64,000 bases of DNA from Steroidobacteraceae bacterium (GTDB lineage: Bacteria; Pseudomonadota; Gammaproteobacteria; Steroidobacterales; Steroidobacteraceae). Both the position numbers and the translations under genes were made by a program. Of this stretch, positions 1 through 59,512 are shown in pieces. The notes beneath the pieces are model-generated. The model did not search any database and was not told the DNA's origin. It worked only from the letters and a program-made list of their open reading frames with translations. The stretch lies in the NCBI GenBank assembly GCA_029266835.1, contig JAQSWD010000003.1, forward strand, positions 1 to 64,000, in the 5' to 3' direction. The stretch's first letter is position 1; every line of letters begins with the position of its first letter.

Positions 1-662
1 AGCACCATGTCGTTGGCTTCCAGCTGGCGCGACAGCATGTCCACTTCTTGCCGTGCCGGCATGGTGTCCTGGTACGCCTTGTACGCGTCGATCTTTCCCG
101 GGCCGATGAGGGCGGCGACCTCGCTCATGTTCTTGTCGTTCGCGAAATTTGCCCCCCGGTCCCCACGGCCACGGTTGGCCGAGTCCATCTGCTGGTCGAT
201 CATGAGGTCGATGAGCTTGTTGGTTTCTTCCCTGGTGAGCCCCAGCTTGTCACCGATGTCGGCGTTCATCCGTTTGAAGTTGGCGCGCAGCTGCGAGCGC
301 ATCATCTTCTGCATGGCTTCGGTTCGTACCGGCGGGCCGCCGGTGCGGGCACGCTCGGGCGATCCCTCGACGGCGGGACTTTCGGAAAGCTCGACCGAGG
401 CGGAAGTGGGCAAGGCCGCGGGTCTGCCGCCAACGGCAGGTGCGGCGGCACCGTCCGCGCCGGCCGCGCCAACCATCATCCGCATCGATTCCAATTCTGC
501 ACGGGCGGCCTCGAGCTCGGCGATGCGCGCGCTCAGCACGCGTGACTGCTCCAGGACCTCGTCAGCGTGGGCTCGCTCGTCGTTGAGCTGGGCGGCGAGG
601 TAGATAGTGCTGGCGCCGAAGGCGCCGGCCGCTATGAGCAGGCCCAGCATGGAAGGCTTCAT
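1..662 (-). CDS. membrane-anchored coiled-coil protein, 3' end cut by window edge
   Basis: This reading frame has no stop inside the window and is therefore missing from the ORF track; I translated it from the reverse complement. It starts at the ATG whose complement is at 660-662 and gives about 220 residues before running off the left edge. The N-terminus (MKPSMLGLLIAAGAFGAS) looks like a signal anchor. It is followed by a charged helical stretch (residues about 27-55), an Ala/Pro-rich linker, and a helical domain rich in Met, Gln and Asp. That fits a periplasmic protein held by one membrane segment. I do not recognise a family and no function is proposed. The long plus-strand ORFs at 7-603 and 48-545 are its shadows. 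Confidence 0.7.
   Translation of the reverse strand, partial: MKPSMLGLLIAAGAFGASTIYLAAQLNDERAHADEVLEQSRVLSARIAELEAARAELESMRMMVGAAGADGAAAPAVGGRPAALPTSASVELSESPAVEGSPERARTGGPPVRTEAMQKMMRSQLRANFKRMNADIGDKLGLTREETNKLIDLMIDQQMDSANRGRGDRGANFANDKNMSEVAALIGPGKIDAYKAYQDTMPARQEVDMLSRQLEANDMV
600..607 (-). repeat. CTATCTAC word family, first of 13 copies
   Basis: By eye the 8-mer CTATCTAC or its complement starts at 600, 1033, 10337, 12181, 13267, 18936, 21522, 28231, 45852, 48096, 50857, 53007 and 58591. Twelve copies are in genes, all on the coding strand; one (12181) is intergenic. Nine are read as TAT CTA C (Tyr-Leu) and three as ..T ATC TAC (Ile-Tyr). Confidence 0.7.
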
Positions 663-710
663 GAGTCACATCCCCCGGCCGTGTTCCGCGCCGGCCTTGC
701 GCCGGACAAG

Positions 711-752
711 TCTAACGCTTTTGGTCTAACCCTTTTGGTCTAGCCCTTTTGG
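711..752. repeat. three tandem 14-bp copies at the 3' end of the CYTH gene
   Basis: Three consecutive copies are seen: TCTAACGCTTTTGG, TCTAACCCTTTTGG and TCTAGCCCTTTTGG (711-724, 725-738, 739-752). The innermost copy contains the last codons and TAG stop of the minus-strand CYTH gene, so the outer two look like duplications of the gene terminus. Each copy has a TAG or TTAG on the minus strand. Confidence 0.8.
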
Positions 753-1258
753 GCCAGCATCAGGTCGAGGTAGGCGCCGTCGATCAGCTGTTCCGGCTGA
801 ATTCCGAGTCGATCCATGAGTTCACCCGCTTCGCTAACGCCCGCGTCCGCGGGTTCATCGTCCACCAGGACGACTTCGAGCTCGAGGAAATGGCCAAGGC
901 CTTCCACCCGGTCGAGATGGACGCGCGTTCGCCCAACCAGGAAGAGAGTGCGGTACTTGCGGATGCGACCGATTTGTCCGTAGGCCAGCGAAAGCGATTC
1001 ACGAAGAGTCTCGGGTGACGAAGTGGGGGACCGTAGATAGAACGACTCCTTCGGGCCCGCTTGGTTCACTCTTCGATAAAAAATCAGCTCGCCGAGATCG
1101 TTGGAAAAGGCGCGCAGCTTCAGGCGGCCCGTGACGCAGTGAAAGAACGTGTCGTCCTGGGCGATCTCGAGCGGACCTTCGCTGGCCAGCTCGGCCACCC
1201 GGGGCGTCAGCGTCGCGACGTTCTCGATACGCGCCTTGATTTCGATGTTGCGCGCCAT
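740..1258 (-). CDS. CYTH-domain protein (class IV adenylate cyclase / triphosphatase family)
   Basis: The 172-residue protein opens with MARNIEIKARIEN, the first strand of the CYTH tunnel fold. The second Glu and the Lys of the ExExK signature are present and the first Glu position is Asn, as I recall for the small class IV cyclase-like subgroup. Further strands (TFFHCVTGRLKLR, ELIFYRR, LDRVEGLGHFLELEV) carry the alternating charged residues that line the tunnel. CYTH enzymes act on triphosphate substrates such as ATP, thiamine triphosphate or polyphosphate; the substrate here cannot be told from sequence. The gene lies 3 nt after the DoxX stop, so the two are probably co-transcribed. The codons for FYLR contain one CTATCTAC word. 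Confidence 0.85.
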   Translation of the reverse strand: MARNIEIKARIENVATLTPRVAELASEGPLEIAQDDTFFHCVTGRLKLRAFSNDLGELIFYRRVNQAGPKESFYLRSPTSSPETLRESLSLAYGQIGRIRKYRTLFLVGRTRVHLDRVEGLGHFLELEVVLVDDEPADAGVSEAGELMDRLGIQPEQLIDGAYLDLMLAQKG

Positions 1259-1261
1259 CGC

Positions 1262-1720: not shown

Positions 1721-1726
1721 CCGCCA

Positions 1727-5936: not shown

Positions 5937-5942
5937 CCATCG

Positions 5943-6824
5943 ATGTCGAAACGCGGCTGGATACTGTTTCTCTCGCTGGGCCTGCTCTGGGGCATGCCCT
6001 ATCTGCTGATCCGCATCGCCGTGGGGGAAATCGACCCGCTGGTGGTCGCGCTCGCACGCACGCTGCTGGGCTCGCTGCTGCTGCTTCCGCTGGCATTGCA
6101 TCGTAGCGCGCTCGCGCCGGCGTTTCGCAAGTGGAAGTGGCTGCTGGCATTTACGCTCATCGAGATCAGCTTGCCGTGGTGGTTGCTGGGGCATGCGGAG
6201 ACCCGGCTGAATAGTTCGACCGCCGGCCTGCTCATCGCCGTGGTGCCCCTGTTCGCCGCCGTCATCGTCAGCAGGCTCGGGCACGAGAAGCTCGAGCCGC
6301 GACGCATCTTCGGCCTGGCGCTGGGCTTTGCCGGCGTGGCGCTGCTCGTGGGCCTCGACATCCACTTCGACGATCTCGCCGCCGTGGCCGCCACTATTGT
6401 CGTGGCGCTGTGCTACGCCATCGGGCCCATCATCATCGATCGCAAACTCAAGGATGTACCCGCCATTGGCGTGATCACCGGTTCGCTGATCGTCGCGAGC
6501 GTCATCTATCTGCCCTTCGCGCCCTTCCTGCTGCCCGACAGCGTGAGCCTGGCGGCGGGATCCTCGGTGGTGGGGTTGGGCGTGCTGTGCACGGCCGCGG
6601 CGTTCATCGTGTTCTTCGCGCTGATCGCCGAGGTGGGCCCTGCGCGCGCCACCGTCATCACCTACGTGAACCCGGCGGTGGCCATCGTGCTGGGTGCGCT
6701 GGTGCTGGACGAGCCGCTGACGCGCGGCATGCTGATCGGCTTCCCGCTGGTGATACTGGGGTCGTTCCTGGGAACGATGCGCGCGAAGCCCGCGGCGGCG
6801 CGGACCGCCGAGGCCGCAACCTAA
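5943..6824 (+). CDS. EamA/DMT-family drug-metabolite exporter
   Basis: About 293 residues with ten predicted transmembrane helices arranged as two EamA repeats. The start MSKRGWILFLSLGLLWGMPYLLIR is the typical first helix of EamA proteins. I chose this ATG because the longer ORF from 5865 overlaps the divergent VOC gene and adds a non-hydrophobic leader. The second repeat contains ATVITYVNPAVAIVLGALVLDEPL, the conserved EamA signature. The family exports metabolites or drugs across the inner membrane; the substrate is unknown. The stop codon lies in one of the CTAACTAC words. Confidence 0.9.
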   Translation: MSKRGWILFLSLGLLWGMPYLLIRIAVGEIDPLVVALARTLLGSLLLLPLALHRSALAPAFRKWKWLLAFTLIEISLPWWLLGHAETRLNSSTAGLLIAVVPLFAAVIVSRLGHEKLEPRRIFGLALGFAGVALLVGLDIHFDDLAAVAATIVVALCYAIGPIIIDRKLKDVPAIGVITGSLIVASVIYLPFAPFLLPDSVSLAAGSSVVGLGVLCTAAAFIVFFALIAEVGPARATVITYVNPAVAIVLGALVLDEPLTRGMLIGFPLVILGSFLGTMRAKPAAARTAEAAT

Positions 6825-6828
6825 CTAC
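6821..6828 (+). repeat. CTAACTAC word family, first of 5 copies
   Basis: CTAACTAC is at 6821, 15562, 16021, 27956 and 56416. Four include a stop codon of a gene (EamA exporter, CBS protein, natB together with the HExxH gene, pirin); the fifth is between the CBS and NfeD genes. Confidence 0.7.
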
Positions 6829-7394: not shown

Positions 7395-7922
7395 CTAAGC
7401 CCCGCGGGCGAGTTCGGCCTCGTAGACCGCGAGGTCCTGCTCCGAAAAGCAGCAGAAGGTCACCTCGTCGATGCCGGTCAGCCGCGCCAATTCGAGGCGG
7501 ACCGTGGTCACGGCGATGCGGGCGGCCTGCTGGATAGGGTAACCGTAGACGCCGGTGCTGATGCTGGGGAACGCGATTCGCTGCAGTCCCGTGGCTGACG
7601 CCAGCTCCAGGCTGCGCCGGTAGCAAGAGGCGAGAAGTCCGTGTTCACCATGGCGGCCGCCCGACCACACCGGGCCCACCGCGTGGATCACGTACCGGGC
7701 CTGCAATCGGTATCCGCGCGTCAGTCTGGCGTCGCCGGTCGGGCAGCCGCCGGCTTGCGCGCATTCCCGCAGCAGTTCGGGTCCGGCAGCGCGATGGATG
7801 GCGCCGTCCACACCCCCGCCGCCTAACAACGAGGGGTTGGCCGCGTTGACGATGGCATCCACGTCCAGCGTGGTGATGTCTGCTCGAATCGCGCGCAGTT
7901 CCGTCATGTCGGGCTCCGTCAT
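7395..7922 (-). CDS. macro-domain protein, O-acetyl-ADP-ribose deacetylase type
   Basis: About 175 residues comprising a single macro domain. The family signatures are all there: [22 protein letters not shown] (ADP-ribose-binding and catalytic loop), the [11 protein letters not shown] segment, [10 protein letters not shown], and the second loop [14 protein letters not shown]. These match MacroD/YmdB-type hydrolases that remove acetyl groups from O-acetyl-ADP-ribose or mono-ADP-ribose from proteins. The start is either the complement of 7920-7922 (MTEPDM) or five codons later; the longer track ORF would overlap the divergent permease. A TTGTTAGG word encodes SLLGG. Confidence 0.93.
7822..7829 (-). 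repeat. TTGTTAGG word family, first of 5 copies
   Basis: TTGTTAGG or its complement is at 7822, 9387, 26105, 28432 and 44440, always on the coding strand and always read as TTG TTA GG(A/C), Leu-Leu-Gly, in the macro-domain, uvrD, natA, mnmE and first MacB-like permease genes. Confidence 0.65.
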
Positions 7923-9155: not shown

Positions 9156-11330
9156 ATGAATGACACTTCCCCGATTCTTCAGGGCCTGAACGACGCTCAA
9201 CGCCAGGCCGTTTCCGCTCCCGTGGGTCCCGTGCTGGTTCTCGCTGGCGCCGGCTCGGGCAAGACGCGCGTGCTCACGCATCGCATCGCGTGGGTGATAC
9301 AAAATGAAGGCGCGTCGCCGTATTCCATCCTGGCGGTCACGTTCACCAACAAGGCCGCGGCCGAGATGCGCCAGCGCATCGAAAGGTTGTTAGGCGTGCC
9401 GGGCGGCGCCATGTGGGTGGGCACTTTCCACGGCATCGCGCACCGGCTGCTGCGCCTGCACTGGCGCGAGGCCAACCTGCCGCAAAGTTTCCAGATCCTC
9501 GACGGCGAGGACCAGCTGCGGCTGATCAAGAAGATCCTCAAGGCGATGGAGCTGGACGAGACGCGCTGGGTGCCGCGCGAAGTGCAGTGGTTCATCAACC
9601 ATAACAAGGACGAGGGCCACCGCCCGGGCACGCTCAAGGACGGCGGCGACCCGACGCGCGCCACCATGTTGCGCGTGTACAAGGAATACGAAGCCCAGTG
9701 CCAACGCACGGGCGTCGTCGATTTCGCCGAGCTGCTACTGCGCGCCTACGAGCTTTGCCGCGACAACGCCGCGCTGATCGGCCATTACCGCCGACGCTTC
9801 AAGCACGTGCTGATCGACGAGTTTCAGGACACCAATGCCATCCAGTACGCCTGGGCGCTGCTGATCGCGGGCGCGGATGGCGCGCCCTTCATCGTCGGCG
9901 ACGACGACCAGTCCATCTACCGCTGGCGCGGCGCCCGAGTGGAGAATCTCACGCGGTTCACTCGCGACTATCCCACCGCCAGGATGTACCGCCTGGAGCA
10001 GAACTACCGCTCCACCGGCAACATCCTCAAGGCCGCGAACGCGCTGATTTCGCACAACACCGGCCGCCTGGGCAAGAACCTGTGGACCGAGGGCAAGGAC
10101 GGCGAACGCATCAAGCTGTACGCCGCGTTCAATGAACGCGACGAGGCCGAGTTCGTCATGAACCGGATCCGCGAGTGGCACAACGCCGGCAATCCGCGCC
10201 GTGACGTGGCCATCCTCTACCGCAGCAACGCGCAATCGCGCGTGTTCGAAGAAATCTTCATGTCGGCGCGCATTCCGTACAAGGTGTACGGCGGCCTGCG
10301 GTTCTTCGAACGCGCGGAAATCAAGGATGCGCTGGCCTATCTACGCGTGATCACCAATCATGCCGACGACGCGTCGTTCGAGCGCGTCGTGAACCTGCCC
10401 ACGCGCGGCATCGGCGCCACCTCGCTGGACAAGGTCCGCGAGCAGGCCAAGGCCAGCAGCGTTTCGATGTGGGATGCGGCCGCGCATGCCGTTGCCCATG
10501 GCCTGCTCGGCCCCAAGGCCGAGGCCGCATTGAACGGCTTCCTCAAGCTCGTCGACCAGCTCGGCAACGACATCGCCGGCCTCGAACTGCACGAGCAGGT
10601 GGATCACGTGATCAACAACTCCGGTCTCGTGGAGCACCACAAGAAGGAAAAGGCTTCGGATCGCGGCGAAGCGCGCGTGGAGAACCTGAACGAACTCGTG
10701 TCCGCGGCGCGAGGATGGGCGCCCGACGTGGCGAGCACGGACGAAGAGCCCATGCCGCCGCTGCAGGCCTTCCTCGCGCATGCCGTGCTGGAATCCGGCG
10801 AAGGCCAGGCCGAGGCCTGGGAAGACTGCGTTCAGATGATGACGCTGCACACCGCCAAGGGACTGGAGTTTCCGCTGGTGTTCCTCGCCGGCATGGAAGA
10901 CGGCCTGTTCCCGCATCAGCGTTCGCTGAACGACGAGGAAGGTCTCGAGGAAGAGCGCCGCCTCGCGTACGTGGGCACCACGCGCGCGATGAAGCAGCTG
11001 TACGTCACCTACGCCGAGCAGCGTCGCCTGCACGGCATGGACAACTTCGGCACGCCGTCGCGATTCATCAACGAGATCCCCGAGGAACTGGTGGAAGAGG
11101 TGCGGCCGCGCATCCAGATCTCGCGTCCCGTGGCCGCGGGACGCTTCAAGGCGCCGATCGACGAGTTGGCCCCAGGCGTCAAGCTCGGCGCGCGCGTGCG
11201 CCACAAGAAGTTCGGCGAGGGCGTCATCCTCAAGGTGGAAGGCCAGGGCCCGCAGGCCAACATCCAGGTGAACTTCGCATCTTTGGGCGTGAAGATCATG
11301 ATGCTCGAATATCTCGAGGTGGTGCGATGA
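9156..11330 (+). CDS. uvrD: ATP-dependent DNA helicase UvrD
   Basis: Starting at MNDTSPILQGLNDAQRQAV (9156; the track start at 9081 reads into the palindrome) the protein is 724 residues, the normal size for UvrD/PcrA. Superfamily-1A motifs in order: LAGAGSGKTR (Walker A, about 33-42), VTFTNKAA (Ia), VLIDEFQDTN (II), VGDDDQSIYRWRGA (III), EQNYRST (IV), MMTLHTAKGLEFPLVF (V) and AYVGTTRAMKQLYV (VI). The C-terminal Tudor-like segment (GARVRHKKFGEGVILK) binds RNA polymerase in UvrD. It unwinds DNA in nucleotide-excision and mismatch repair. A TATCAT hexamer sits 10 nt upstream of the ATG. The stop overlaps pyrF. Confidence 0.97.
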   Translation: MNDTSPILQGLNDAQRQAVSAPVGPVLVLAGAGSGKTRVLTHRIAWVIQNEGASPYSILAVTFTNKAAAEMRQRIERLLGVPGGAMWVGTFHGIAHRLLRLHWREANLPQSFQILDGEDQLRLIKKILKAMELDETRWVPREVQWFINHNKDEGHRPGTLKDGGDPTRATMLRVYKEYEAQCQRTGVVDFAELLLRAYELCRDNAALIGHYRRRFKHVLIDEFQDTNAIQYAWALLIAGADGAPFIVGDDDQSIYRWRGARVENLTRFTRDYPTARMYRLEQNYRSTGNILKAANALISHNTGRLGKNLWTEGKDGERIKLYAAFNERDEAEFVMNRIREWHNAGNPRRDVAILYRSNAQSRVFEEIFMSARIPYKVYGGLRFFERAEIKDALAYLRVITNHADDASFERVVNLPTRGIGATSLDKVREQAKASSVSMWDAAAHAVAHGLLGPKAEAALNGFLKLVDQLGNDIAGLELHEQVDHVINNSGLVEHHKKEKASDRGEARVENLNELVSAARGWAPDVASTDEEPMPPLQAFLAHAVLESGEGQAEAWEDCVQMMTLHTAKGLEFPLVFLAGMEDGLFPHQRSLNDEEGLEEERRLAYVGTTRAMKQLYVTYAEQRRLHGMDNFGTPSRFINEIPEELVEEVRPRIQISRPVAAGRFKAPIDELAPGVKLGARVRHKKFGEGVILKVEGQGPQANIQVNFASLGVKIMMLEYLEVVR

Positions 11331-12166: not shown

Positions 12167-12196
12167 CCACGCCTGCCTGGCTATCTACCTGGAGCG

Positions 12197-12707: not shown

Positions 12708-14081
12708 ATGAAGATCGTGATCCTCGGCGCCGGGCAGGTAGGGCGTACAGCGGCTTACCACCTGTCCCGGGAGGAAGCCAACGAGGTCACGGTGGTCGAC
12801 ACCAACGAAGAGGTGTTGCGCGACCTGCAGGACCGCCTCGACATCCGCACCGTGGCGGGCAATGCCGCCTATCCCTCGGTCCTGGAAGCGGCGGGTACGG
12901 CCTCGGCGGATATCATCGTTGCGCTCACCTCCAGCGACGAAGTGAACATGATGGCCTGCGAGGTGGCGTACACGCTGTACCGCACGCGCACGAAGATCGC
13001 GCGCATCCGTTCCTCGGAGTACACGCGACACCCCAAGCTGTTTGCCGACGAGGCGCTGTCCGTCGACGTGTGGATCAGCCCCGAGCAGCTGGTCACCGAA
13101 TACATCGCGCAGCTCATCAAGTTTCCGGGAGCGTTGCAGGTGCTGGACTTCGCCGATGGCCGCGTGCGCCTGGTGGGCATCCGCGCGCGCAAGGGCGGCC
13201 TGCTGGTGTCGCAGAAGCTCAAGGCGCTCAAGGAGCATCATCCGAATACCGATGCACGCGTGGTGGCTATCTACCGTGACGGCCGCAGCATCATTCCCGA
13301 TGGCGAGACGATCATCCACGAGAACGACGAGGTGTTCTTCCTGGCGGCGCGCGATGACATCCGCAAGTTCATGAGCGAAATCCGCAAGGAAGAAGCGCCG
13401 GCCAAACGCGTGGTGATCGCCGGCGGCGGCAACATCGGCCTGGCGCTGGCCCGCCGGCTCGAGGACGAGAACCAGGTGAAGCTGATAGAGCGTGATCCCC
13501 GGCGCGCGCGACGTATCTCGGAGGTGCTGCTCAACACCATCGTGCTCAATGGCGACGCGGCCGACGAGGAACTGCTCATCGAGGAGAACATCGACAGCTG
13601 CGACGTGTTCGCCGCGCTGACCAACTCCGAGGAAGCCAACATCCTCTCGGCCATGCTGGCGAAGCGGCTGGGCGCGCGCAAGGTGATGGCGCTGATCAAC
13701 AAGCCTTCGTACGCCGATCTCATGGAGAGCGGCAACATCGACATCGCCATCTCGCCGCAGACCATCACCATCGGCTCGCTGCTGGCGCACGTACGGCGCG
13801 GCGACGTGGTGCGCGTGCACTCGCTGCGCCGTGGCGCGGCGGAAGCCCTCGAGGCCGTGGTGCATGGCACCGACAAGACTTCGCGCGTGGTGGGCCGGAA
13901 GATCGGCGACATCCAGCTTCCCGAAGGCGCGATCATCGGCGCCGTGGTGCGCGGCGACCAGGTGACCATCGCCCACCACGACACGATGATCCACAACGAC
14001 GATCACGTGATCGTGTTCCTCTCCGATCGCCGCCACGTGGAGCAGGTGGAGCGCCTGTTCTCCGGGCCCGGCGGGCGTTAG
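12708..14081 (+). CDS. trkA: Trk system potassium uptake protein TrkA
   Basis: 457 residues with the duplicated RCK architecture of TrkA. The first Rossmann fold begins MKIVILGAGQVGRTAAYHL (GxGxxG); its TrkA_C domain follows at about 140-220. A second Rossmann fold starts at about 233 (RVVIAGGGNIGLALARRLE), with a second TrkA_C domain to the end. TrkA is the cytosolic NAD(H)/nucleotide-binding gating ring of the Trk K+ uptake channel. trkH lies 12 nt downstream, so both halves of the system are in one operon. A CTATCTAC word encodes AIYR with the uncommon GCT codon. Confidence 0.97.
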   Translation: MKIVILGAGQVGRTAAYHLSREEANEVTVVDTNEEVLRDLQDRLDIRTVAGNAAYPSVLEAAGTASADIIVALTSSDEVNMMACEVAYTLYRTRTKIARIRSSEYTRHPKLFADEALSVDVWISPEQLVTEYIAQLIKFPGALQVLDFADGRVRLVGIRARKGGLLVSQKLKALKEHHPNTDARVVAIYRDGRSIIPDGETIIHENDEVFFLAARDDIRKFMSEIRKEEAPAKRVVIAGGGNIGLALARRLEDENQVKLIERDPRRARRISEVLLNTIVLNGDAADEELLIEENIDSCDVFAALTNSEEANILSAMLAKRLGARKVMALINKPSYADLMESGNIDIAISPQTITIGSLLAHVRRGDVVRVHSLRRGAAEALEAVVHGTDKTSRVVGRKIGDIQLPEGAIIGAVVRGDQVTIAHHDTMIHNDDHVIVFLSDRRHVEQVERLFSGPGGR

Positions 14082-15561: not shown

Positions 15562-15990
15562 CTAACTACGGATATAGCTCTCGAGGTCCGCGATCGTGCG
15601 TTCCTGCTCTTCGATCACCGCGCGCACCAGGTCGCCGATGCTGAGCACACCCACCACGCGTTCGCCGTTCACCACCGGCAGATGGCGGATGCGCCGGTCG
15701 GTCATGAGGCGCATGCAGTCGTGCGCATCTTCGCGCGGTGACACCGTGAAAACCTTGCCGGTCATGATGGCGTTGACCGGGGTTTCGGTGGAGGAGCGGC
15801 CCAGCAGCACTACCTTGCGTGCGTAGTCACGCTCGGAAACGATGCCGACGAGTTTGTCGCCCGACATCACCACCAATGCGCCGATGTGATGCTCGGCCAT
15901 CTTGCGGATGGCGGCCAGGACCGGTTCGTTCGGCCCGATCGAGTACACGCCCTTGGGCTTGTGATCCAGCAACTGTTGCACGGAAAGCAT
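15562..15990 (-). CDS. tandem CBS-domain protein
   Basis: 142 residues made of two CBS motifs: about 10-65 (GVYSIGPNEPVLAAIRKMAEHHIGALVVM) and 75-135 (VFTVSPREDAHDCMRLMTDRRIRHLPVVNG). Such stand-alone pairs bind adenine nucleotides and act as energy or ligand sensors for a partner protein. A ribosome-binding sequence (GGAGGT) precedes the ATG on the minus strand. The end of the gene contains GTAGTTAG, i.e. the stop lies within a CTAACTAC word. Its partner is not evident. Confidence 0.92.
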   Translation of the reverse strand: MLSVQQLLDHKPKGVYSIGPNEPVLAAIRKMAEHHIGALVVMSGDKLVGIVSERDYARKVVLLGRSSTETPVNAIMTGKVFTVSPREDAHDCMRLMTDRRIRHLPVVNGERVVGVLSIGDLVRAVIEEQERTIADLESYIRS

Positions 15991-16039
15991 GGTGACCTCC
16001 GGCGGCCCTTCCCTGGCCGTCTAACTACAGGTTACGACT

Positions 16040-27959: not shown

Positions 27960-28393
27960 CTACCGACCGCGGTCTTTCGCCGTATCGGGTGCACGCCCGG
28001 CGGCAGGGCTTCATTGCGGTGCTGCGCCAGCAGCGAGCGGTATCGGTAGATTTCGCGCGAGGTGAAGTCCCTGGCCTCGATCTCATAACGATTGTCCCAG
28101 TAGCCGCGGCGAAAACATTCCGCCAGGTACTTCGGAATGGTCAGGTCGCCCGTGGCCCATTGCCGCAGCACGTGGAAATACTCGTGCAGCAAGAGCGGCG
28201 CGTCGGCGAAGAACTCCTTGCCGCTGCCGCGTAGATAGATGCGGCTGGGGCGCGTGGTGGCAATGGCACGCATGTGCCAGCGCACGTAAATGCTGTACTG
28301 AATGACCTGGACATGCCCCACGGGCTGGCCGAACAGCGCATCGAGGGCGCCTTCGACGTCCTTTGGCGGTTGGCAGCGATTACCTAACCACAT
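27956..28393 (-). CDS. HExxH-motif protein downstream of mnmE
   Basis: 145 residues with HEYFHVLRQW at about residue 69, a classical HExxH zinc site, and downstream Glu/Asp (YWDNRYEIEARDFTSREIYRYRS) that could supply a third ligand. The layout resembles small DUF4157-type peptidase-like proteins, though I am not sure of the family. There is no signal peptide. It starts 4 nt after the mnmE stop and so belongs to the mnmE transcript. Its stop shares four bases with the convergent natB stop. Confidence 0.75.
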   Translation of the reverse strand: MWLGNRCQPPKDVEGALDALFGQPVGHVQVIQYSIYVRWHMRAIATTRPSRIYLRGSGKEFFADAPLLLHEYFHVLRQWATGDLTIPKYLAECFRRGYWDNRYEIEARDFTSREIYRYRSLLAQHRNEALPPGVHPIRRKTAVGS

Positions 28394-47775: not shown

Positions 47776-48540
47776 ATGCGGGTATTCATCACCGGTTCCA
47801 CCGATGGTCTCGGTCGCGGCGCCGCCGAAACGTTGATGAAGGATGGCCACCAGGTGGTGTTGCACGCGCGCTCGCAAGATCGCGCCGCAGCCCTCGCGGA
47901 GCTCGCGCCTCGGGCGGCCGGTGTCGCCATCGGCGATCTGGCGAGCGCCGAACAGACGCGCTCGCTCGCCGACCAGGTCAACAAGATCGGGCGGATGGAC
48001 GCGGTCATCCACAACGCCGGCATCTACCGCGAGCCCGGTCGTGGGGCGACGCCGGAGAAACATGCCAAGGTGCTGGCGGTGAACGTGCTCGCACCCTATC
48101 TACTCACCGGTCTCATCGAACGGCCCGCGCGGCTGGTGTACCTCAGCAGCAGCATGCACTTCGGTGGCGAGGGTTCATTGAGCGACATCGACTGGACCGA
48201 GCGCCGCTGGGACACGAACCGCGCCTACTCGGAGAGCAAGCTCCACGTCACCGCGCTTGCTTTCGCCGTGGCGCGTCACTGGCCGAACGTTTTGAGCAAC
48301 GCCGTGGACCCCGGCTGGGTACCGACGAAGATGGGCGGCCGCGGCGCGCCCGATGACCTCCAGCAAGGGCACCTGACCCAGACATGGCTGGCGGTCAGCG
48401 ATGACGCGAAAGCGAAAGTCAGCGGGAAATACTGGCATCACCGCGAACAGCGGCGGCCAGCCGCCCAGGCGCTGGACACGGGATTCCAGGATGAGCTGAT
48501 CGTGAAACTCGCCGAGCTCACGGGCTACAAACTCTTTTGA
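47776..48540 (+). CDS. SDR family NAD(P)-dependent oxidoreductase
   Basis: About 254 residues from MRVFITGSTDGLGRGAAETL. The cofactor motif TGSTDGLG, the VIHNAGIYR strand and the catalytic YSESK (Tyr and Lys) identify a classical short-chain dehydrogenase/reductase. The ORF track begins at 47665 and adds 37 residues that look like a Tat signal by chance (RRKTLRHLAWVAGAL); I prefer the internal ATG because the Rossmann fold starts there. It is coupled to the amine oxidase by a TTGA overlap. A CTATCTAC word encodes PYLL. Confidence 0.88.
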   Translation: MRVFITGSTDGLGRGAAETLMKDGHQVVLHARSQDRAAALAELAPRAAGVAIGDLASAEQTRSLADQVNKIGRMDAVIHNAGIYREPGRGATPEKHAKVLAVNVLAPYLLTGLIERPARLVYLSSSMHFGGEGSLSDIDWTERRWDTNRAYSESKLHVTALAFAVARHWPNVLSNAVDPGWVPTKMGGRGAPDDLQQGHLTQTWLAVSDDAKAKVSGKYWHHREQRRPAAQALDTGFQDELIVKLAELTGYKLF

Positions 48541-49769
48541 GCGTGGACGTCGACATCGTCATCGTCGGGGGCGGCGCCGCCGGCATCGGCGCCGCGCGGC
48601 GTCTGGCGCGAAGCGGCGCATCGGTGTTGTTGCTGGAGGCGGAGTCCCGCCTCGGTGGACGTGCGTGGACCCACGGCCTTCGCGGCCTGACTATCGATCT
48701 GGGCTGCGGCTGGCTGCATTCCGCCGAACAGAATTCGTGGGCCGCCCTCGCGCGTGATGCGGACATCCCGCTGGACCTGAGCTCGCCCGCCTGGGGCAAG
48801 CAGTTTCGCGACCTGGGCTTTCCGCCGGCCGAACAAGCCGAGGCACGCGAGGCCTTCACGCAATGGATGCGGCGCATGTCTGAAACCCCACCCGCCAGCG
48901 ATTGCGCGGCGGACGCTCTCGATGAGCGGAGCCCGTGGAATGCCTACATCCGCGCGATCGCGGGCTTCATCAGTGGCGCGCCGCTCGAGCGGCTCTCGGT
49001 GGCGGACTACGTGACCTACGATGAAACGTCCACGGACTTCAACTGGCGCGTGCGCAGCGGCCTTGGTGCGCTGGTCGCTGGCAGCCTGCCGCAAAACATT
49101 CGCGTCAGACTCGCCACGCCCGCGGATGCCATCGCGCTCAACGCCGAAGGCGTCACGGTGACGACCGCATCGGGCGCGTTGAAAGCGCGCGCCGCGCTGC
49201 TCAGCGTCTCCACGCATGTGCTGGCCGGTGACACGATCAAACTACCGCCCGGCCTGGATGCCTGGCGCGAAGCTGCCACGAAACTGCCGCTGGGCCGCAA
49301 CGAAAAACTCTTCCTCGAGATTCCGGCAGATAGCCCGTTCGAGCCGGAGACACAGGTTTATGGCGACCCGCGGAATTCGCGCACCGGCGCGTACTACCTC
49401 AGGCCCTTCGGCTGGCCGGTCGTCGAATGTTTTCTCGGCGGTGAAGGCGCCGGCGTCGTCGAAGACGAAGGCCCGGCCGCAGGGTTCGCGTTCGCGCTGG
49501 ATCAACTGGTCAATCTGTTCGGCGCGCAGGTGCGAGGGCAATTGAAGCCCTTGGTGGCCTCCAGCTGGGGCCGCATGCAACGCATCGGCGGCGCCTACAG
49601 CTACGCCTTGCCCACTCACGCGGCGGCGCGCGGAATTTTGGCGCGGCCCTTCGAGCAGTGCATCTTCTTCGCCGGCGAGGCCACGAGCGTAGGGGACTTT
49701 TCCACCGCTCATGGCGCGCATGATAGTGGCGTCCGAGCGGCCGAAGAGATTCTCGCCACGCTTCCGTGA
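48537..49769 (+). CDS. FAD-dependent amine oxidase family protein
   Basis: About 410 residues. The FAD Rossmann motif DIVIVGGGAAGIGAARRLA, then LLLEAESRLGGRAWT, is the flavin amine oxidase hallmark. The FAD-contacting end is CIFFAGEATSVGDFSTAHGAHDSGVRAAEEI. The middle is the variable substrate domain. Members oxidise amines or polyamines or desaturate carotenoid-like substrates. The start is TTG at 48537 (overlapping the SDR stop) or GTG at 48543. With the SDR it forms a coupled pair of redox genes; pathway unknown. Confidence 0.9.
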   Translation: MSVDVDIVIVGGGAAGIGAARRLARSGASVLLLEAESRLGGRAWTHGLRGLTIDLGCGWLHSAEQNSWAALARDADIPLDLSSPAWGKQFRDLGFPPAEQAEAREAFTQWMRRMSETPPASDCAADALDERSPWNAYIRAIAGFISGAPLERLSVADYVTYDETSTDFNWRVRSGLGALVAGSLPQNIRVRLATPADAIALNAEGVTVTTASGALKARAALLSVSTHVLAGDTIKLPPGLDAWREAATKLPLGRNEKLFLEIPADSPFEPETQVYGDPRNSRTGAYYLRPFGWPVVECFLGGEGAGVVEDEGPAAGFAFALDQLVNLFGAQVRGQLKPLVASSWGRMQRIGGAYSYALPTHAAARGILARPFEQCIFFAGEATSVGDFSTAHGAHDSGVRAAEEILATLP

Positions 49770-49910: not shown

Positions 49911-51539
49911 GTGAATACCCTGACCGACCGGTCGAATCTCGACCATCTGCGCAAGCAGGCCAAGGATCTGCTACGTCTCTATCGCGCTGGCGATCCGGCT
50001 GCGTTCGAGCGCCTTCGCCACTTTCTGCCCGCGGCGCACGGCCGGAGCAACGACGCGATGCGCGGCCTGCAACTGCGACTGCACGACATGCAGTCGTGCA
50101 TCGCGAGGGAATACGGCTTCGCCAGCTGGAACGAACTCAAGGACGCGGTCGAGTTGCGCCGCGCGCGTGCGCAAGATGCGCATGCGCTGCGCCTCTACTG
50201 GGCGGGCCTGGTCTTCGGTGGCGACCTCACCGGCGCCGCACTGCGACCACGGCCAGTAGTCGCCGCACGCCTGCTCGCGGAAACGCCGGACCTCGTCGGC
50301 AACGATCCATGGCTGGCCTGCGCGATTGGTGACCTGGACACTGTGCGGCGCGCGGCTGATGCAGACCCTGCGTGGGTCAACCAGGCGGGTGGTCTTCTGC
50401 GCGTCGCGCCGCTCGTCGCGGTGACGCACTCATCCCTGACAAAGCTACCGCGCTTCCACGCGGGTCTCGTGGGCTGCCTGCGCCTGCTGCTGGAACGTGG
50501 CGCTGATGCCAATGGGTTCTACCTCAATCGCTGGCCGCCACACTCGCTGGAAGAGCCGGGCGAAGAACGCCTCTCTGCCTTGTACGGCGCGGCCGGAAAA
50601 CACCACGACCTCGAGATGACCCGACTACTGCTCGCGGCGGGCGCCGATGGCAATGACAACGAGTCGTTGTATCACTCCATCGACGACCCCGACACGGCAC
50701 TGCCGTGCACGCGCGCGTTGCTCGAAGCCGGCACGCGCGTCACAGGCTCCAACGCGCTCGCCAAGGTGCTGGACATGGATAATCTCGAAGGCCTGAAGCT
50801 GTTGCTGCGGTACACGCCGCATGGCGACGCCGACCTGGGGCGCATTCTGCACTGGGCTATCTACCGCGGCAGGTCGGCGGCCCACGTGCGCGCGTTGCTG
50901 GACGCCGGCGCGGATCCAAAGTCGCTGAGCCCGCACCACCAGGATGCCTTCCACCATGCCGCGGACGCCGGCCTGCCGGAAGTGATGCGGATGCTGAAAG
51001 GTGGTGGTGACACTCTCACCGAAGAGGAACAATTCGTGTCGGCCTGCGCGCGCGCCGATGAGGCAGAAGCGCGACGGCTGTTCGAGCCCGGAGTGTTTGC
51101 TAGGCTATCACCCGCGCAACTCAAACAACTGCCCAACCTGGCCATGAGCGGCCGCGACGATGCGGTGCGCCTGATGGTGGAATTGGGCTGGCCCGTCGCC
51201 ACGCGCGGCGGTGATATCGACGGATCCGCTCTCAACTGGGCGGTGTTCCGCGGCCGCCCCGAGCTCGCGGAGTTCCTGCTGGAACGTGGCGCGAGTTTCC
51301 GCGAGCCTCACGGCTACAACAGCGACGTGCTGGGCACGCTGTCCTGGGCGTCGATCAACCAGCCCCGTCATGATGGTGACTGGCCCGGGTGCGCCGCCGC
51401 CCTGCTGCGACACGGCTTGCCACCAGCGACACCCTTGCCGGAATCGCGGCAGCCGAAGCCGCACCGCATGGTGCGCATCGACGGGCGGGACATGACCTGT
51501 TCGGAAGACGTCGCGGAGATCCTGCTGGGCGGCGAGTAG
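49911..51539 (+). CDS. ankyrin repeat protein
   Basis: About 542 residues from GTG at 49911, chosen because GGAGG lies 5 nt before it; the track start 49863 has none. The N-terminus (LDHLRKQAKDLLRLYRAGDPAAFERLRH ... SCIAREYGFASWNELK) is the helical module seen before ankyrin repeats in many soil bacteria. Repeats follow from about 190 (LLLERGADANG, TRLLLAAGADGND, VRALLDAGADPKSL, LAEFLLERGASFREP). Ankyrin arrays bind proteins; role unknown. There is no signal peptide. A CTATCTAC word encodes WAIYR. Confidence 0.9.
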   Translation: MNTLTDRSNLDHLRKQAKDLLRLYRAGDPAAFERLRHFLPAAHGRSNDAMRGLQLRLHDMQSCIAREYGFASWNELKDAVELRRARAQDAHALRLYWAGLVFGGDLTGAALRPRPVVAARLLAETPDLVGNDPWLACAIGDLDTVRRAADADPAWVNQAGGLLRVAPLVAVTHSSLTKLPRFHAGLVGCLRLLLERGADANGFYLNRWPPHSLEEPGEERLSALYGAAGKHHDLEMTRLLLAAGADGNDNESLYHSIDDPDTALPCTRALLEAGTRVTGSNALAKVLDMDNLEGLKLLLRYTPHGDADLGRILHWAIYRGRSAAHVRALLDAGADPKSLSPHHQDAFHHAADAGLPEVMRMLKGGGDTLTEEEQFVSACARADEAEARRLFEPGVFARLSPAQLKQLPNLAMSGRDDAVRLMVELGWPVATRGGDIDGSALNWAVFRGRPELAEFLLERGASFREPHGYNSDVLGTLSWASINQPRHDGDWPGCAAALLRHGLPPATPLPESRQPKPHRMVRIDGRDMTCSEDVAEILLGGE

Positions 51540-51588: not shown

Positions 51589-53397
51589 TCAGGCAACCTG
51601 GTTCCGTCCCGCGCGTTTCGCCCGGTATAGCTGCGTGTCAGCCGAATGTAGCAGCTCCGCCAGTTCTGCCGTGCCATCCCACTGCGCGACTCCGATGCTG
51701 ATCGTGATGCCGAGCCCCGGATGAATGGTCCGCCAGTCATGCGCCGCGACTTCAGTCCGCACGGCCTCGCAGAAAGCCAGCGCATCGTCACGCGTCGTCG
51801 CTGGCATTATCAACGCGAATTCCTCGCCGCCGATACGCGCCACGAGGTCCGTATGTCGCGAAATGCGGCGCATGAGCGCGGCGCTCTGTTTCAACGCCTG
51901 GTCACCCACCGGGTGACCCAGTCCGTCATTGACCACCTTGAAATGATCGAGGTCGGCGATCGCGATGCTGAGCGGCCGCCCGACGGCCAGCGCCACGTCT
52001 ATCTCGGCGGCCAGGCGCTGCATGAAGCAGCGGCGATTCGCCACGCCAGTCAGCGCGTCCTCCTGGGTCTCGCGTTCCAGCACCAGGCTGCGTTCGCGCA
52101 GCATGGTGATCAATCGTTCCTTCTCGAGGTTCGCCTTCTCGAGCTCTTCCGTGCGTTCGGTGACTCGCTCCTCGAGGCTTAAACGATAATTCTCCAGGTC
52201 TTCAAAGGCGCGCGCGTCCGCCAGCGCCACCGCCACTTGCGCACCCAGCTGACGTAACAAGTGGAGGTCCGCGGGCGCGTACACGCCGGCCTGCTGGTGC
52301 TGCACGCTCAACAGTCCCAGCACGACGCCGTCATTGACCAGCGGCACGGCGATCAATGACCCCATCTGATCCTCGGAAGCCTCCGCGCGCAGTGGCAATT
52401 CCGCAGGCGCGCTCTGCCAGTCCTTGACAAGCAAGGGCTCGGCGCGCGCCACCAGCCATCCGAACAGCCCGGCATCGATGGGCTTCTGCCGCGCGGGTAA
52501 GCGCTTGCCCTGGCGCTCGTGGACGCGCACGTCCAGCAGGCGCCTCTCGCGATCCACCAGCAACAGGTGCAGTTCGTCGAAGCGGAACAGCGCGCGCATC
52601 TCGCCCAGGATGCGCTCCGCGAGGTCGTCCACGCGGCGCGCGCCCTGCAGCGCGCGTCCGGCTTCGAACAACCTCGTCAACGGACCTCTGTCCGCCCGTA
52701 CCGGGTCGCGCTGCGTGCCGATGCTGTTGAAGCTGAGAACGAACAGCAGCATCAGTCCCGTGAACAGCGTGAATACGGCGACATTGCCGGTGTTGTACAA
52801 CACCGCCGCGAGAATGCCCGCAGGCACGAAGATGAGATCCGACAGCGCGTAGCTGGGCGTGACGATGCTGCGCACGTCGCGGCCGTCGAAGCGGAAAAAC
52901 AGGATCATCAGCCCCACGTTGACGGCCTGCGCCGCCAGCGCCATGGCGGCCAGCGGCAGGATGTCGCCCACCAGCAAACCGTTGATCGGGTGGCGCCCGC
53001 CACAGAGTAGATAGATGTGTCCGGCGGCCAGCAACATCAGCGCTGTCATGGCGGCGTTGTGCAGCGCGCGCAGCGCCGCCACCTTGATCGAGCCCTGGCT
53101 GTAACGGCGGCTGACCAGCGGCCAGGTCAGCGAAGCCATGCCGCAGATCGACGCGGCGACCGCCGGCTCGAACACCAGCAACATGCCGACTTGCGGCAGC
53201 CGTTCCATGGAGATCAGGCCCAGGCGTGGCGCGCGCAGCCCGAATTGCCAGACGAACAGGCAGGCGCCGATGCCCATCAGCGTGACCCACCAGGGTGGGA
53301 ACGCGACTCCGCCGGGCAGCGACAGCACCAGGGCGCCCAGTGCCACACCAAAGAGCAGGATGGAGTAGGCCGCCAATGCTCCGTAACGCGAGCGCAT
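51589..53397 (-). CDS. membrane diguanylate cyclase with GAF domain
   Basis: About 602 residues from MRSRYGALAAYSILLFGVAL (the track start at 53496 reads through a terminator). Six to eight N-terminal membrane helices (about 5-240) form a sensor. A GAF domain follows (about 270-415, with MGSLIAVPLVNDGVVLGLLSVQHQ), then a coiled coil (RLSLEERVTERTEELEKANLEKE) and a GGDEF domain. The active site reads ARIGGEEFAL and an RHTD I-site lies five residues before it, so it should make c-di-GMP with product inhibition. The ligand of the sensor part is unknown. Confidence 0.93.
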   Translation of the reverse strand: MRSRYGALAAYSILLFGVALGALVLSLPGGVAFPPWWVTLMGIGACLFVWQFGLRAPRLGLISMERLPQVGMLLVFEPAVAASICGMASLTWPLVSRRYSQGSIKVAALRALHNAAMTALMLLAAGHIYLLCGGRHPINGLLVGDILPLAAMALAAQAVNVGLMILFFRFDGRDVRSIVTPSYALSDLIFVPAGILAAVLYNTGNVAVFTLFTGLMLLFVLSFNSIGTQRDPVRADRGPLTRLFEAGRALQGARRVDDLAERILGEMRALFRFDELHLLLVDRERRLLDVRVHERQGKRLPARQKPIDAGLFGWLVARAEPLLVKDWQSAPAELPLRAEASEDQMGSLIAVPLVNDGVVLGLLSVQHQQAGVYAPADLHLLRQLGAQVAVALADARAFEDLENYRLSLEERVTERTEELEKANLEKERLITMLRERSLVLERETQEDALTGVANRRCFMQRLAAEIDVALAVGRPLSIAIADLDHFKVVNDGLGHPVGDQALKQSAALMRRISRHTDLVARIGGEEFALIMPATTRDDALAFCEAVRTEVAAHDWRTIHPGLGITISIGVAQWDGTAELAELLHSADTQLYRAKRAGRNQVA

Positions 53398-55714: not shown

Positions 55715-56419
55715 ATGCAACAGATTCGACGCAGCAATGAACGCGGATACGCCGACCACGGATGGCTGAAGTCATTCCACACGTTTTCGTTCGCGAATTA
55801 CTTCGACCCGGAACACGTGGAATTCGGCGCCCTGCGCGTGATCAACGAGGATCGCGTGTCTCCCGGGCAGGGTTTCGGCGCACACGGCCATCGCGACATG
55901 GAGATCATCAGCTACGTTCTCGAGGGCGCGCTGGCGCACAAGGACTCCACGGGTAGCGAGTCGACGATCCGGCCGGGCGACGTGCAGCGCATGAGCGCAG
56001 GACGTGGCGTGGTCCACAGCGAGTACAACCCTTCTACAACCTCCGGCGTGCATTTCCTGCAGATCTGGATCCAGCCGGACCAGCGCGGTATCGAGCCCAG
56101 CTACGAAGAGAAGCGCTTCGCGCCCGAGGACAAGCGCGGCAAGTTGCGCCTGATCGCCTCGCCGGATCGCGCGGAAGGATCGGTGCTCATCCACCAGGAT
56201 GCGCGCATCTACGCGGGCCTGTTCGATGGCGCGGAGACGGCGGCGTTCACCGTTCAGCCCGGCCGGCGCGTGTACCTGCACGTGGCGCGCGGCACCGTGT
56301 CCGCCAACGGCTCGGTGCTGAATGCCGGTGATGCGTTGAAATTGACGGCGGCCGGCGAGCTCAGGATCGAGCGGGGTGCGGGCGCCGAGGTGATCGTGTT
56401 CGACCTGCCGGGCGGCTAA
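55715..56419 (+). CDS. pirin family protein (YhhW-like)
   Basis: About 234 residues from the ATG at 55715, which has an excellent AGGAGG site; the track start at 55643 lies in the promoter region. The N-terminal cupin has HGWLKSFHTFSFANYFDPEHV and the metal-binding GFGAHGHRDMEIISYVLEG, with the His-x-His and Glu typical of pirins. The C-terminal cupin is shorter and lacks a clear metal site. Bacterial pirins act as quercetinases or redox-linked regulators; the activity here is not known. Its stop lies in a CTAACTAC word. Confidence 0.92.
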   Translation: MQQIRRSNERGYADHGWLKSFHTFSFANYFDPEHVEFGALRVINEDRVSPGQGFGAHGHRDMEIISYVLEGALAHKDSTGSESTIRPGDVQRMSAGRGVVHSEYNPSTTSGVHFLQIWIQPDQRGIEPSYEEKRFAPEDKRGKLRLIASPDRAEGSVLIHQDARIYAGLFDGAETAAFTVQPGRRVYLHVARGTVSANGSVLNAGDALKLTAAGELRIERGAGAEVIVFDLPGG

Positions 56420-56433
56420 CTACCCCCAGAAAG

Positions 56434-56467
56434 GAGCGCCGCCAGCCCATGACGGCTGGCGGCGCTC
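56434..56467. terminator. bidirectional terminator between pirin and the TonB receptor
   Basis: A perfect 14-bp stem GAGCGCCGCCAGCC / GGCTGGCGGCGCTC with a 6-nt loop lies between the stops of the two convergent genes. On the minus strand it is followed by CTTTCT. No long T-run on the plus strand. Confidence 0.65.
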
Positions 56468-56533
56468 GGTGATCGACAAGCGCCCGAATGCGAAAAAGTG
56501 GCGCCTCCCGAATCCATCATCGGGTCACGATCT

Positions 56534-59512
56534 TCAGAACGTGCCGCGGATACCCAGCAGCACCGCGTATCCCGGGTCGTAGAAGGCGCGGGCCGCGTTG
56601 CTGAAGGCTCCGCTGTCATTACCCCAGGTCTGGCGAATGGTTTCGCCGGTGATGTTGATCACGTTGAGCGTGATCTGGGGCGACGACGGCAGGCTTTCGA
56701 ACTTGTAGCTCGCCGACAGGTCCAGCTGGTTGGTCGCGTCCGTCCAGAAGCGGGCACCAGTGATGCCTTCCTGGTTGGTTCCGGACGAGATCTGCTCGTC
56801 GTTGTGCACGAATGACAGCCGGACGGAGGCGGGTCCATTGTCGTAATACAGCGTGGCGTTGTATGTGACCGGCGCGATACCCACCGCGACGGCCGGCTGG
56901 CCCGTCCCACCCTCGGTGCTCTGCTTCACGTTGGTGTAGTTCGCCTGAAAGCCGAATCCTTCCGTGATGAAGTTGAGAGGCTGCACCCAGGTGAGTTCGT
57001 AGCCGCGGATGTTGAGCTGGCCAGGCGCATTGATCTGACGCGTCTGGTTGACCGTTGCCAGGCCGGGTCCACCACGGGAAGTGATGGCCGTCTGCTGCGT
57101 CGGGCTCAACGTGTCGAAGGTGATGCCCAGCGGCGCGAGGCTGCTGAAGGGCACCACGGTCAGCTCACCCACCGTGAAGCCGGTGATTTGCTTCTGGAAC
57201 AGCGTGAGGCCCACGTAGCCTTCGTCGCCCGTGTACCACTCGCCGCCCAGGTCGATGTTGGTGGACAGGTAAGGAGCCAGTGTCGGGTTGCCCACGGTCA
57301 GCGCCTGCGCGGACGGATCGCTGAACTGCGCGTTCGGCAGCATGTCGCGCGGGCTGGCGCGCGTAATGGTGCGCGAGCTCGCGAAACGCAGCACGACATC
57401 GTCTCTCACCGTCAGTGCCGCGCTCATCGACGGCAGGAACTGCGAGTAGGTAGTGTCGTTGCTCGCCTGCACGATGGTGATGGTGGTGCCGTTGTTGAGC
57501 GTCACCGGGCCCGCCACGAACTGGTCGGTCTCGACGAAGCGGCCACCGAGGTTGTAGCGCAGCTCCTTGCCCAGGATTTCGCTCCTGGCATTGAACTCCA
57601 CGTAATAACCCATGGTGTCTTCTTCGATGATGCCGTTGGCGGCGCCAGTGGCCGCGCCGGTTCCTACCGGGGCATTGCGCGAATACTCGTGATAGTTGGT
57701 CGCGTCGAAGAAGGCGTCGTAGTCGACCGTGATGAACCCGGCCGGACCCGCCGTGAGGAACTGCGAAAGGTCGGCTTGCGTGACCGCCGAGCCCGCCTGG
57801 CCATTGCAGCCGGGGGCCGTACCAGGGGCGGGAATGAACGCACCGCCGCCACCGCAAACATGCTGCTGCCATTCACGGCTGTTGTCACGGCCCGAAATGC
57901 CGCGATGCATGGAGTCATAGGCCAGGCCCACCTTGATGTTCTGATCGTCGTCACCGAACGTGAAATCGAGATGCGCGCCCTCGTTGGTGACCAGCCTCTT
58001 CTCGTTCTGGATGTTCACGCGGCCGCCGCCGGCCCAGGTCCATCCCAGGTTCGGATCGTTGACGTCGGCACTCGGGGTGATGGTGACGAAATCGCCGCTG
58101 GTGTTGTCGAAGTCGGCCGTGATGCCCTGGTTCAGCGGAGTGTTGACCAGGATCGTCGGTGCTTCGCGGAAGAACCAGCTGCGGCTCTTGTTCACCGCGA
58201 GGTCCATGCGCACCGAATCATTGATCTGCCAGCGCGCGCCGGGGTTGAACCCCCAGAAATCCACCTGTTCGTCGTAGGGACGGGCCTCGAGGAACCACTG
58301 GGCATTGGCAATTGTGGCGCTGGTGACCACGTTGTTGTCGTCGACCTGCATCGCCGTCGGAATCATCGCGCCATTGCGGCCGACGAGATTGAGATCCAGG
58401 CGATTGAAGGCGCGGTGTGCCTTGGAATACAGCGTGTCGAAATACAGGTGCAGATCGTCGGTGGGGCGGTACTCGAGAGAGACCAGGCCCGAATAACGAT
58501 CGCGGTTTCCGTCGATGAAAGCCGGCCGGCCGAGGCGCGGGAACAGCGCCTGGTCGATCTGCCGCAGCGACAGGCCAGGGTTGATCTGCTGTAGATAGGC
58601 ACCGTCGATCGGCGTGCCGGCGACGAGGCCCGCACCGGCATTGACGGGCACCGCGCCCGGGATCACCCAGCCATTGCCGCCACCCACGTTGCAACCGCTG
58701 TTGGCGCCGGCTCCGGCATTCGGGCTGGTCGCGGGCGTCGTGACGGGCGGCGCGACGCCGCACTGGAAGTAGCTGAGGTTCGGATTCGTGTAACCGATGG
58801 TTTCGAAGCCGGTCGTCGTGGAGTCGGAGTCGACTCCCGCGAAACCGACCAGCACGCCGAACTTCTCTCCCGTCCAGCTTCCCATGAGCGAACCGCGCGG
58901 GCTCGTGGCCTCGCTGGCATCGCTGTAGCCGGCCTGAAGCTGGTAATTGAAATGCGTGCCCGGGTTGTCGAACGGCCGCGCGGTGCGCATGTTGACGGTA
59001 CCCGCCGCGCCGCCTTCGAGCTGGCTGGCCACCGGCGACTTGCTGACGTCGAGCCGGGTGAACAGTTCCGTCGGGAACAGATCGAGGTCGAGCTCGCGGT
59101 TCTGGCCCTGGCTGTCGACGCGGCCCGTGGAGGCCACGCCCACGGCGGCGCCGTTGATGGTGGTCTTCGTGAAATTGGTGTTCAGGCCGCGAATCGCGAT
59201 ATTGAGACCTTCACCGGTCACTTCGCGCGTCAGCTGGACGCCCGGGATGCGGTTGAGCGATTCGGCGATGTTCAGATCCGGGAACTTGCCGATGTCTTCG
59301 GCGAACACCGAATCGGAGAATCCCACGGACTCGCGCTTCGCATTCGTGGCGCTCTGCAGCGAGGCGCGATAGCCGGTCACGGTGACCTCTTCGACTTCCT
59401 CCTGGGAGCGCTCAGGTTCTTGCGCTTGCGCGGACGCGGTGGCGGTCGCCAACGCGGCGCATACCCCGGCAGCCACGAGCGAAAGCTGGAAATTCTTTGG
59501 ATGGTCAATCAT
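56534..59512 (-). CDS. TonB-dependent outer-membrane receptor
   Basis: About 992 residues from MIDHPKNFQLSLVAAGVCAALATATASAQ, which has a signal peptide and a GGGGG ribosome-binding site; the track start 92 codons earlier is spurious. The TonB box region is EEVEEVTVTGYR. The plug domain contains DIGKFPDLNIAESLNRIPGVQLTRE, GEGLNIAIRGLNTNFTKTTINGA and the LEGGAAGTVNMRTARPFD end. A 22-strand barrel follows and ends in Phe (GIRGTF). The form matches the carbohydrate/xenobiotic-type receptors abundant in Xanthomonadales-like bacteria. A GntR regulator is divergent. Confidence 0.95.
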   Translation of the reverse strand: MIDHPKNFQLSLVAAGVCAALATATASAQAQEPERSQEEVEEVTVTGYRASLQSATNAKRESVGFSDSVFAEDIGKFPDLNIAESLNRIPGVQLTREVTGEGLNIAIRGLNTNFTKTTINGAAVGVASTGRVDSQGQNRELDLDLFPTELFTRLDVSKSPVASQLEGGAAGTVNMRTARPFDNPGTHFNYQLQAGYSDASEATSPRGSLMGSWTGEKFGVLVGFAGVDSDSTTTGFETIGYTNPNLSYFQCGVAPPVTTPATSPNAGAGANSGCNVGGGNGWVIPGAVPVNAGAGLVAGTPIDGAYLQQINPGLSLRQIDQALFPRLGRPAFIDGNRDRYSGLVSLEYRPTDDLHLYFDTLYSKAHRAFNRLDLNLVGRNGAMIPTAMQVDDNNVVTSATIANAQWFLEARPYDEQVDFWGFNPGARWQINDSVRMDLAVNKSRSWFFREAPTILVNTPLNQGITADFDNTSGDFVTITPSADVNDPNLGWTWAGGGRVNIQNEKRLVTNEGAHLDFTFGDDDQNIKVGLAYDSMHRGISGRDNSREWQQHVCGGGGAFIPAPGTAPGCNGQAGSAVTQADLSQFLTAGPAGFITVDYDAFFDATNYHEYSRNAPVGTGAATGAANGIIEEDTMGYYVEFNARSEILGKELRYNLGGRFVETDQFVAGPVTLNNGTTITIVQASNDTTYSQFLPSMSAALTVRDDVVLRFASSRTITRASPRDMLPNAQFSDPSAQALTVGNPTLAPYLSTNIDLGGEWYTGDEGYVGLTLFQKQITGFTVGELTVVPFSSLAPLGITFDTLSPTQQTAITSRGGPGLATVNQTRQINAPGQLNIRGYELTWVQPLNFITEGFGFQANYTNVKQSTEGGTGQPAVAVGIAPVTYNATLYYDNGPASVRLSFVHNDEQISSGTNQEGITGARFWTDATNQLDLSASYKFESLPSSPQITLNVINITGETIRQTWGNDSGAFSNAARAFYDPGYAVLLGIRGTF

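Follow-up and report, generated by a model that had tools for sequence, protein, structure and literature searches.

A genus-restricted family of mutually exclusive DNA words with uptake-sequence-like properties in the Steroidobacteraceae

Here we report that the octamer CTATCTAC, which stands out in a 64-kb stretch of DNA from a Steroidobacteraceae bacterium (hereafter the window: positions 1 to 64,000 of contig JAQSWD010000003.1), is the most frequent form of a degenerate DNA word that is not palindromic and whose family numbers roughly 1,000-2,500 copies per genome in one gammaproteobacterial genus. The word is built on the cores TAG[A/T]TAG, TTGTTAG and TAGTTTG, mostly with a G before them; together with its variants it occurs about once per 2-3 kb, and two sites almost never lie close together. 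Comparative analysis suggests that the family may constitute a new self-recognition system of the type of the uptake signal sequences (USS) and DNA uptake sequences (DUS), spread by biased uptake and recombination, a reading on which we are evenly poised. Established uptake sequences are, to our knowledge, confined to Neisseriaceae and Pasteurellaceae, and we know of no self-recognition word of such a kind in this lineage; a literature search for the word found no paper. If true, the reading would mean that an uptake sequence arose independently in a single genus while its sister genera lack it, that it exists in more than one dialect and that its exclusion kernel can be measured; such a case would allow a direct test of molecular drive against selection and of the co-change of receptor and word. 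If the word does not serve uptake, a genome-wide self-word would be at least as interesting.

A first-pass annotation of the window had listed 13 copies of CTATCTAC, all of which were found where it placed them, and their excess is real by every count applied. Dinucleotide shuffles of the window give an expectation of 0.17 copies (maximum 2 among 100) and a third-order Markov model 0.59, and no 8-mer of the window has a higher z score for over-representation than CTATCTAC. In the host genome (4.1 Mb) there are 441 copies (213+228), compared with 94 (47+47) for a reversed-word control. With 203 copies per Mb the window is about twice as dense as the genome on average (107 per Mb), and it probably lies near the replication origin, as gyrB and gidA/mnmG lie within it. 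The annotation had described a single over-represented 8-mer, which holds for CTATCTAC but is incomplete, because related spellings are enriched too: CTAACTAC and CCTAACAA each occur five times in the window (0.16 and 0.18 expected, respectively), and these words, CAAACTAC and others are part of the same system. Four genomes of the genus were available, G000, G001, G002 and G003, of which G002 is a complete congener chromosome of 4.65 Mb and G001 a more distant congener. Sample contigs of G000 and G001 were chosen from hit lists, so that counts of CTATCTAC in them are biased upward; this bias touches neither the genome-wide counts nor G002, and almost none of the G003 sample. In an unbiased ranking of the 8-mers of G002 the strongest are TTGTTAGG, GTAGATAG, GTAGTTAG, GTTGTTAG, CTTGTTAG and GTAGTTTG, whose counts exceed the Markov expectation about 8-31 times.

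These spellings are interchangeable, in that they exclude each other over about 600 bp. Gaps of less than 200 bp between core sites in 1.2 Mb of G002 number 12, against 52.7+-6.6 for random placement (20,000 placements, minimum 29), and the resulting ratio of 0.24 for family words compares with 1.10+-0.21 for random word sets of similar composition. The pair correlation g(r) is 0.15 below 100 bp and then rises through 0.30, 0.60, 0.63, 0.82, 0.86 and 0.91 to reach 1 at about 800 bp, while words with one mismatch that are not family members (1,204 sites) show no exclusion, with g(r) of 0.94-1.03 below 600 bp. Pairs that differ in spelling are affected too, with 20 within 300 bp in G002 where about 64 are expected. 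Since the spellings exclude each other, they are functionally equivalent, with the useful range of one site extending over a few hundred bases. The exclusion recurs in G000 and G003 taken together (3 pairs under 200 bp vs 12.8 expected) and is weaker in G001 when that genome's own words are used (10 vs 20.9).

The word is also maintained as DNA and not through the proteins it happens to encode. With proteins and codon usage held fixed, CTATCTAC was observed 97 times in G002 against 3.4 expected, and the same null gave 56 against 2.1 for CTAACTAC, 83 against 3.4 for CTAACAAC and 64 against 3.4 for CAAACTAC, compared with 18 against 10.4 for the reversed control. Family words are thus 10-25 times over-represented in G002 in every stop-free frame and in both orientations, so that the word acts at the DNA level. 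These results bear out the suggestions of the first-pass annotation that the DNA word itself is maintained and that the rare CTA codon is used because of it.

Among some 600 relatives the system is restricted to this genus. Genome-wide counts of CTATCTAC are 642 and 296 in two congeners and 38 in the third, more distant one, the MnmG identities of the three congeners being 89, 84 and 70% (for the latter two, measured on partial matches). In 244 other genomes of the order CTATCTAC is usually rarer than its reversed control, as is TTGTTAGG; class-wide, in 369 genomes, GTAGWTAG is clearly above control only in this genus, with one other genome of 0.4 Mb showing 37 against 20. Three sister genera (392 kb; GyrB identity 81-82%) yielded zero occurrences of five core words and no comparable word family. 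This distribution marks the system as an innovation of this genus. Within the genus, G001 uses a dialect with TCGTTAG and TTGTTAG as its words: TCGTTAG occurs 552 times there, compared with 34, 61 and 30 in G000, G002 and G003. The annotation had held that its idea would fail if genome-wide counts approached Markov or codon-based expectation, or if the excess were lost in sister genomes; the counts lie far above both expectations, and the excess is kept in two of the three congeners, with a change of dialect in the third. As a separate observation, TCGTTAG is strongly depleted in G000, G002 and G003, at 0.1-0.3 of its codon expectation. Elsewhere in the order, a contig of another genus (G165:C123:16607-24552) carries seven copies of TTGTTAGG, all on the same strand of an 8-kb stretch; they probably form a chromosomal integron attC array.

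Copies of the word are better conserved than control words and are scarce in low-GC DNA. Over about 109 kb of aligned sequence between G000 and G002 (78% identity), GTAGATAG was kept exactly at 12 of 16 and 12 of 18 sites (0.67-0.75), compared with 0.15-0.23 for control words in the same genome pair. In G002 the richer a bin is in GC, the denser the words (Spearman +0.27, p 3e-5), and bins below 60% GC hold few of them. The longest word-free gap is a 17-kb low-GC island (L200:3416-20000; G002:C1 about 1,103,400-1,120,400) that encodes a phage-type integrase, an LA2681-like HEPN protein and an AAA/PHP protein, and which may be a defence island. A second word-free gap, of 11 kb (G002:C1 about 2,444,500-2,455,700; L129/L130), has a GC content of 0.594 and overlaps pil genes for PilN and a PilQ-type secretin.

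How might such a family arise? Under the uptake reading, some DNA-binding part of the competence apparatus, possibly a minor type IV pilin, would prefer DNA that bears the word, and fragments so taken up would recombine into the chromosome. Copies would thereby accumulate through biased uptake, a process of molecular drive similar to that of USS and DUS, and a single word per fragment would suffice, which would produce the exclusion zone. Of the options that the first-pass annotation had offered, an uptake word fits best, although in our judgement the case for it is balanced between yes and no. The family agrees with uptake sequences in copy number, lack of strand polarity, even spacing, conservation, dialects and the presence of competence genes: all four congeners encode ComEC, DprA and N_methyl pilins, with PilN and a PilQ-type secretin found in G002. 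Published descriptions of USS and DUS include even spacing, no preferred orientation, conservation and a lack of copies in acquired DNA (PMC1939737, PMC2397512), and dialects between related species are described for DUS (PMC3630211). Like USS (AAGTGCGGT and the Apl dialect), the word reaches hundreds of copies per Mb, lies both in and between genes in balanced orientation and has few close sites; a Pasteurellaceae genome used as a USS control contained 874 copies in 2.2 Mb (397 per Mb), also in balanced orientation, and among 98 gaps showed a mild shortage of close ones once its terminator-like inverted pairs were merged. Like the DUS of Neisseriaceae, the word is genome-wide, more conserved than its surroundings and divided into dialects (PMC2397512, PMC3630211). 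DUS are absent from recently acquired DNA; for the present word, density is low in bins under 60% GC, and one integrase-bearing island has no copy. Sequence and lineage are unrelated to USS, however, and the word differs from it in that several spellings are interchangeable, the 8-mer is compact and lacks extended flanks, and exclusion is stronger. It differs from DUS, again unrelated in sequence, in that most copies lie inside genes.

Several observations weigh against uptake. Tested relatives that lack the word encode ComEC and DprA just as well, so that competence genes are only permissive, and no receptor was identified, none of the pilins being assigned as ComP-like. The close inverted pairs seen for USS in the Pasteurellaceae genome are absent for this word, and exclusion in that control is weaker (4 gaps vs 6.4 under 200 bp). 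TTGTTAG turns over faster than GTAGATAG, with 5 of 24 sites conserved from G002 to G000, and the organism is known here from its genome sequence alone.

The main rival of the uptake reading is a structural or self-marking word, bound inside the cell by a protein such as a nucleoid organiser, a condensin loader or a self-marking factor, with selection keeping about one site per 1-3 kb and additional sites nearby being useless. Such redundancy over a few hundred bases also predicts exclusion between equivalent spellings, and core sites in G002 are denser around the origin (0.605 per kb) than in the three further samples, which have 0.37-0.43 per kb. However, the low density in islands and low-GC DNA and the fast turnover of some spellings suggest build-up in shared core DNA more than a structural requirement, and a change of dialect between congeners would require about two thousand sites to co-change without an obvious driver. 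We also know of no such factor with thousands of evenly spaced sites, which counts against this explanation, and we consider it unlikely, if worth serious attention. On a more novel reading, the family could be a genome-wide, dialect-forming self-mark that has nothing to do with uptake, in which interchangeable spellings that exclude each other over a few hundred bases are read by some factor, and which arose in one genus with about two thousand sites rewritten, mostly in genes; we regard this as possible, though on the doubtful side.

A further alternative is that the word signals nothing and is created or protected by biased repair or modification, a situation like that of the highly iterated palindrome HIP1 (GCGATCGC), a lineage-specific and hugely over-represented 8-mer within cyanobacterial coding sequence. 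The very high counts of one lineage-specific word in genes recall HIP1, but unlike that palindrome the word is non-palindromic and its variants exclude each other, and mutations arising independently would not keep different spellings hundreds of bases apart. Furthermore, orthologous sites that are not identical mostly differ at two or more positions and have no single one-step precursor in common, so that the word did not arise in one mutational step. The suggestion in the first-pass annotation of a mutational product of a methylated GCAG/GTAG context, taken here as deamination, is thus not supported. An explanation of the HIP1 type is improbable overall.

The remaining explanations fare worse. 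The word resembles Chi (GCTGGTGG) and the FtsK-orienting polar sequences (KOPS) in being short, non-palindromic and present in many copies, and its length and per-genome count are comparable with those of Chi, but those elements are polar relative to replication and this word is not: the 568 core sites in 1.2 Mb of G002 are oriented 283:285, and the balance holds in every sampled region (83:84, 120:122, 37:36 and 43:43), whereas the same test on E. coli Chi gave 29:3 and 6:23 in two of three regions. A polar recombination or segregation word, the latter among the annotation's proposals, is therefore very improbable. The perfect balance suggested alternating orientation of sites, of which none was found. 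An effect of rare CTA/TTA codons or of a translation or other mRNA-level signal is still harder to credit. It can point to the 11 copies of CTATCTAC within called genes of the window (gene calls being based on open reading frames, ORFs), all 11 of which are on the coding strand, nine reading C.TAT.CTA.C (Tyr-Leu) and two CT.ATC.TAC (Ile-Tyr); but, as the annotation had recognised in part, this bias follows from stop-codon avoidance, because the complement carries TAG. In G002, enrichment of CTATCTAC extends over sense frame 0 (6 observed, 0.03 expected), frame 1 (32, 2.6) and frame 2 (54, 0.40) and the sole stop-free antisense frame (5, 0.39), and other spellings, in a comparison also run for 7-mers, are enriched likewise. 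Moreover, sites occur at stop codons and between genes, CTAACTAC has stops in both orientations and is often at gene ends, and TTGTTAG lies mostly in the opposite orientation relative to coding. An artefact of counting or of heterogeneous base composition such as AT-rich islands, to which a mild enrichment of other TA-rich words over a low-order Markov model might point, can be set aside, as the words rise with GC, are scarce in AT-rich bins and exceed a codon-level null that preserves proteins and codon usage.

Sites in the window are given by the strand of the GTWGWTWG reading, GTAGATAG being CTATCTAC and GTAGTTAG being CTAACTAC on the other strand. Two copies of GTAGATAG lie outside the ORF calls, at 600..607 (+) and, between called genes, at 12181..12188 (-). 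Those identical in G002 are at 1033..1040 (+; sense TAT CTA), 10337..10344 (-; uvrD-like helicase gene), 13267..13274 (-; TrkA-domain gene, sense ATC TAC), 18936..18943 (-; DUF885 gene) and 21522..21529 (+; SBP_bac_5 gene), the last two within diverged flanks, while the copy at 28231..28238 (+) has two substitutions there. The others read TAT CTA in the sense direction at 45852..45859 (-), 48096..48103 (-), 53007..53014 (+; GGDEF/GAF gene) and 58591..58598 (+; TonB-dependent receptor plug gene), and ATC TAC at 50857..50864 (-). Copies of GTAGTTAG are found largely at gene ends: those at 6821..6828 (-) and 56416..56423 (-) provide the TAA stops of plus-strand genes ending at 6824 and 56419, that at 15562..15569 (-) is the TAG stop of the minus-strand gene 15562-15990, and that at 27956..27963 (-) ends two convergent genes, 26775-27959 (+) and 27956-28393 (-), by a TAA stop on one strand and a TAG stop on the opposite one. 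The fifth, at 16021..16028 (-), is intergenic, downstream of the minus-strand gene 16040-16483, and is replaced in G002 by the family variant CTAGTTAG. GTTGTTAG occurs at 7823..7830 (-), at 9386..9393 (+) in the uvrD-like helicase gene (TTG TTA; not conserved in G002), at 26104..26111 (+; TTG TTA, identical in G002) and at 31578..31585 (+; not conserved). CTTGTTAG is present at 28433..28440 (-; identical in G002) and 44439..44446 (+), and GTAGTTTG at 42710..42717 (-), 49238..49245 (-) and 61334..61341 (+; not conserved in G002).

With regard to the limits of the family, words such as GTTGTTCG, GTTGCTGG, GTTGTTGG and GTGGATAG are apparently enriched but show no exclusion near core sites and were left out, and GTTGATAG and GTAGATTG are likewise not members. 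No extended flanking consensus was found around the word beyond a codon-periodic signal. Concerning gyrB, the GyrB of many members of the bacterial family (G001:C321, G276:C12, G294:C31, G137:C24, G290:C35 and others) is split after about residue 500 within a single open frame of 1,250-1,500 aa, in an intein-like manner, an insertion that the gyrB of the window does not have. Finally, long repeats, carrying AAAAGGGGACATGC in G002 and words of the CCCCTTTT type in G003, are possibly akin to repetitive extragenic palindromic (REP) elements and are separate from the word studied here.

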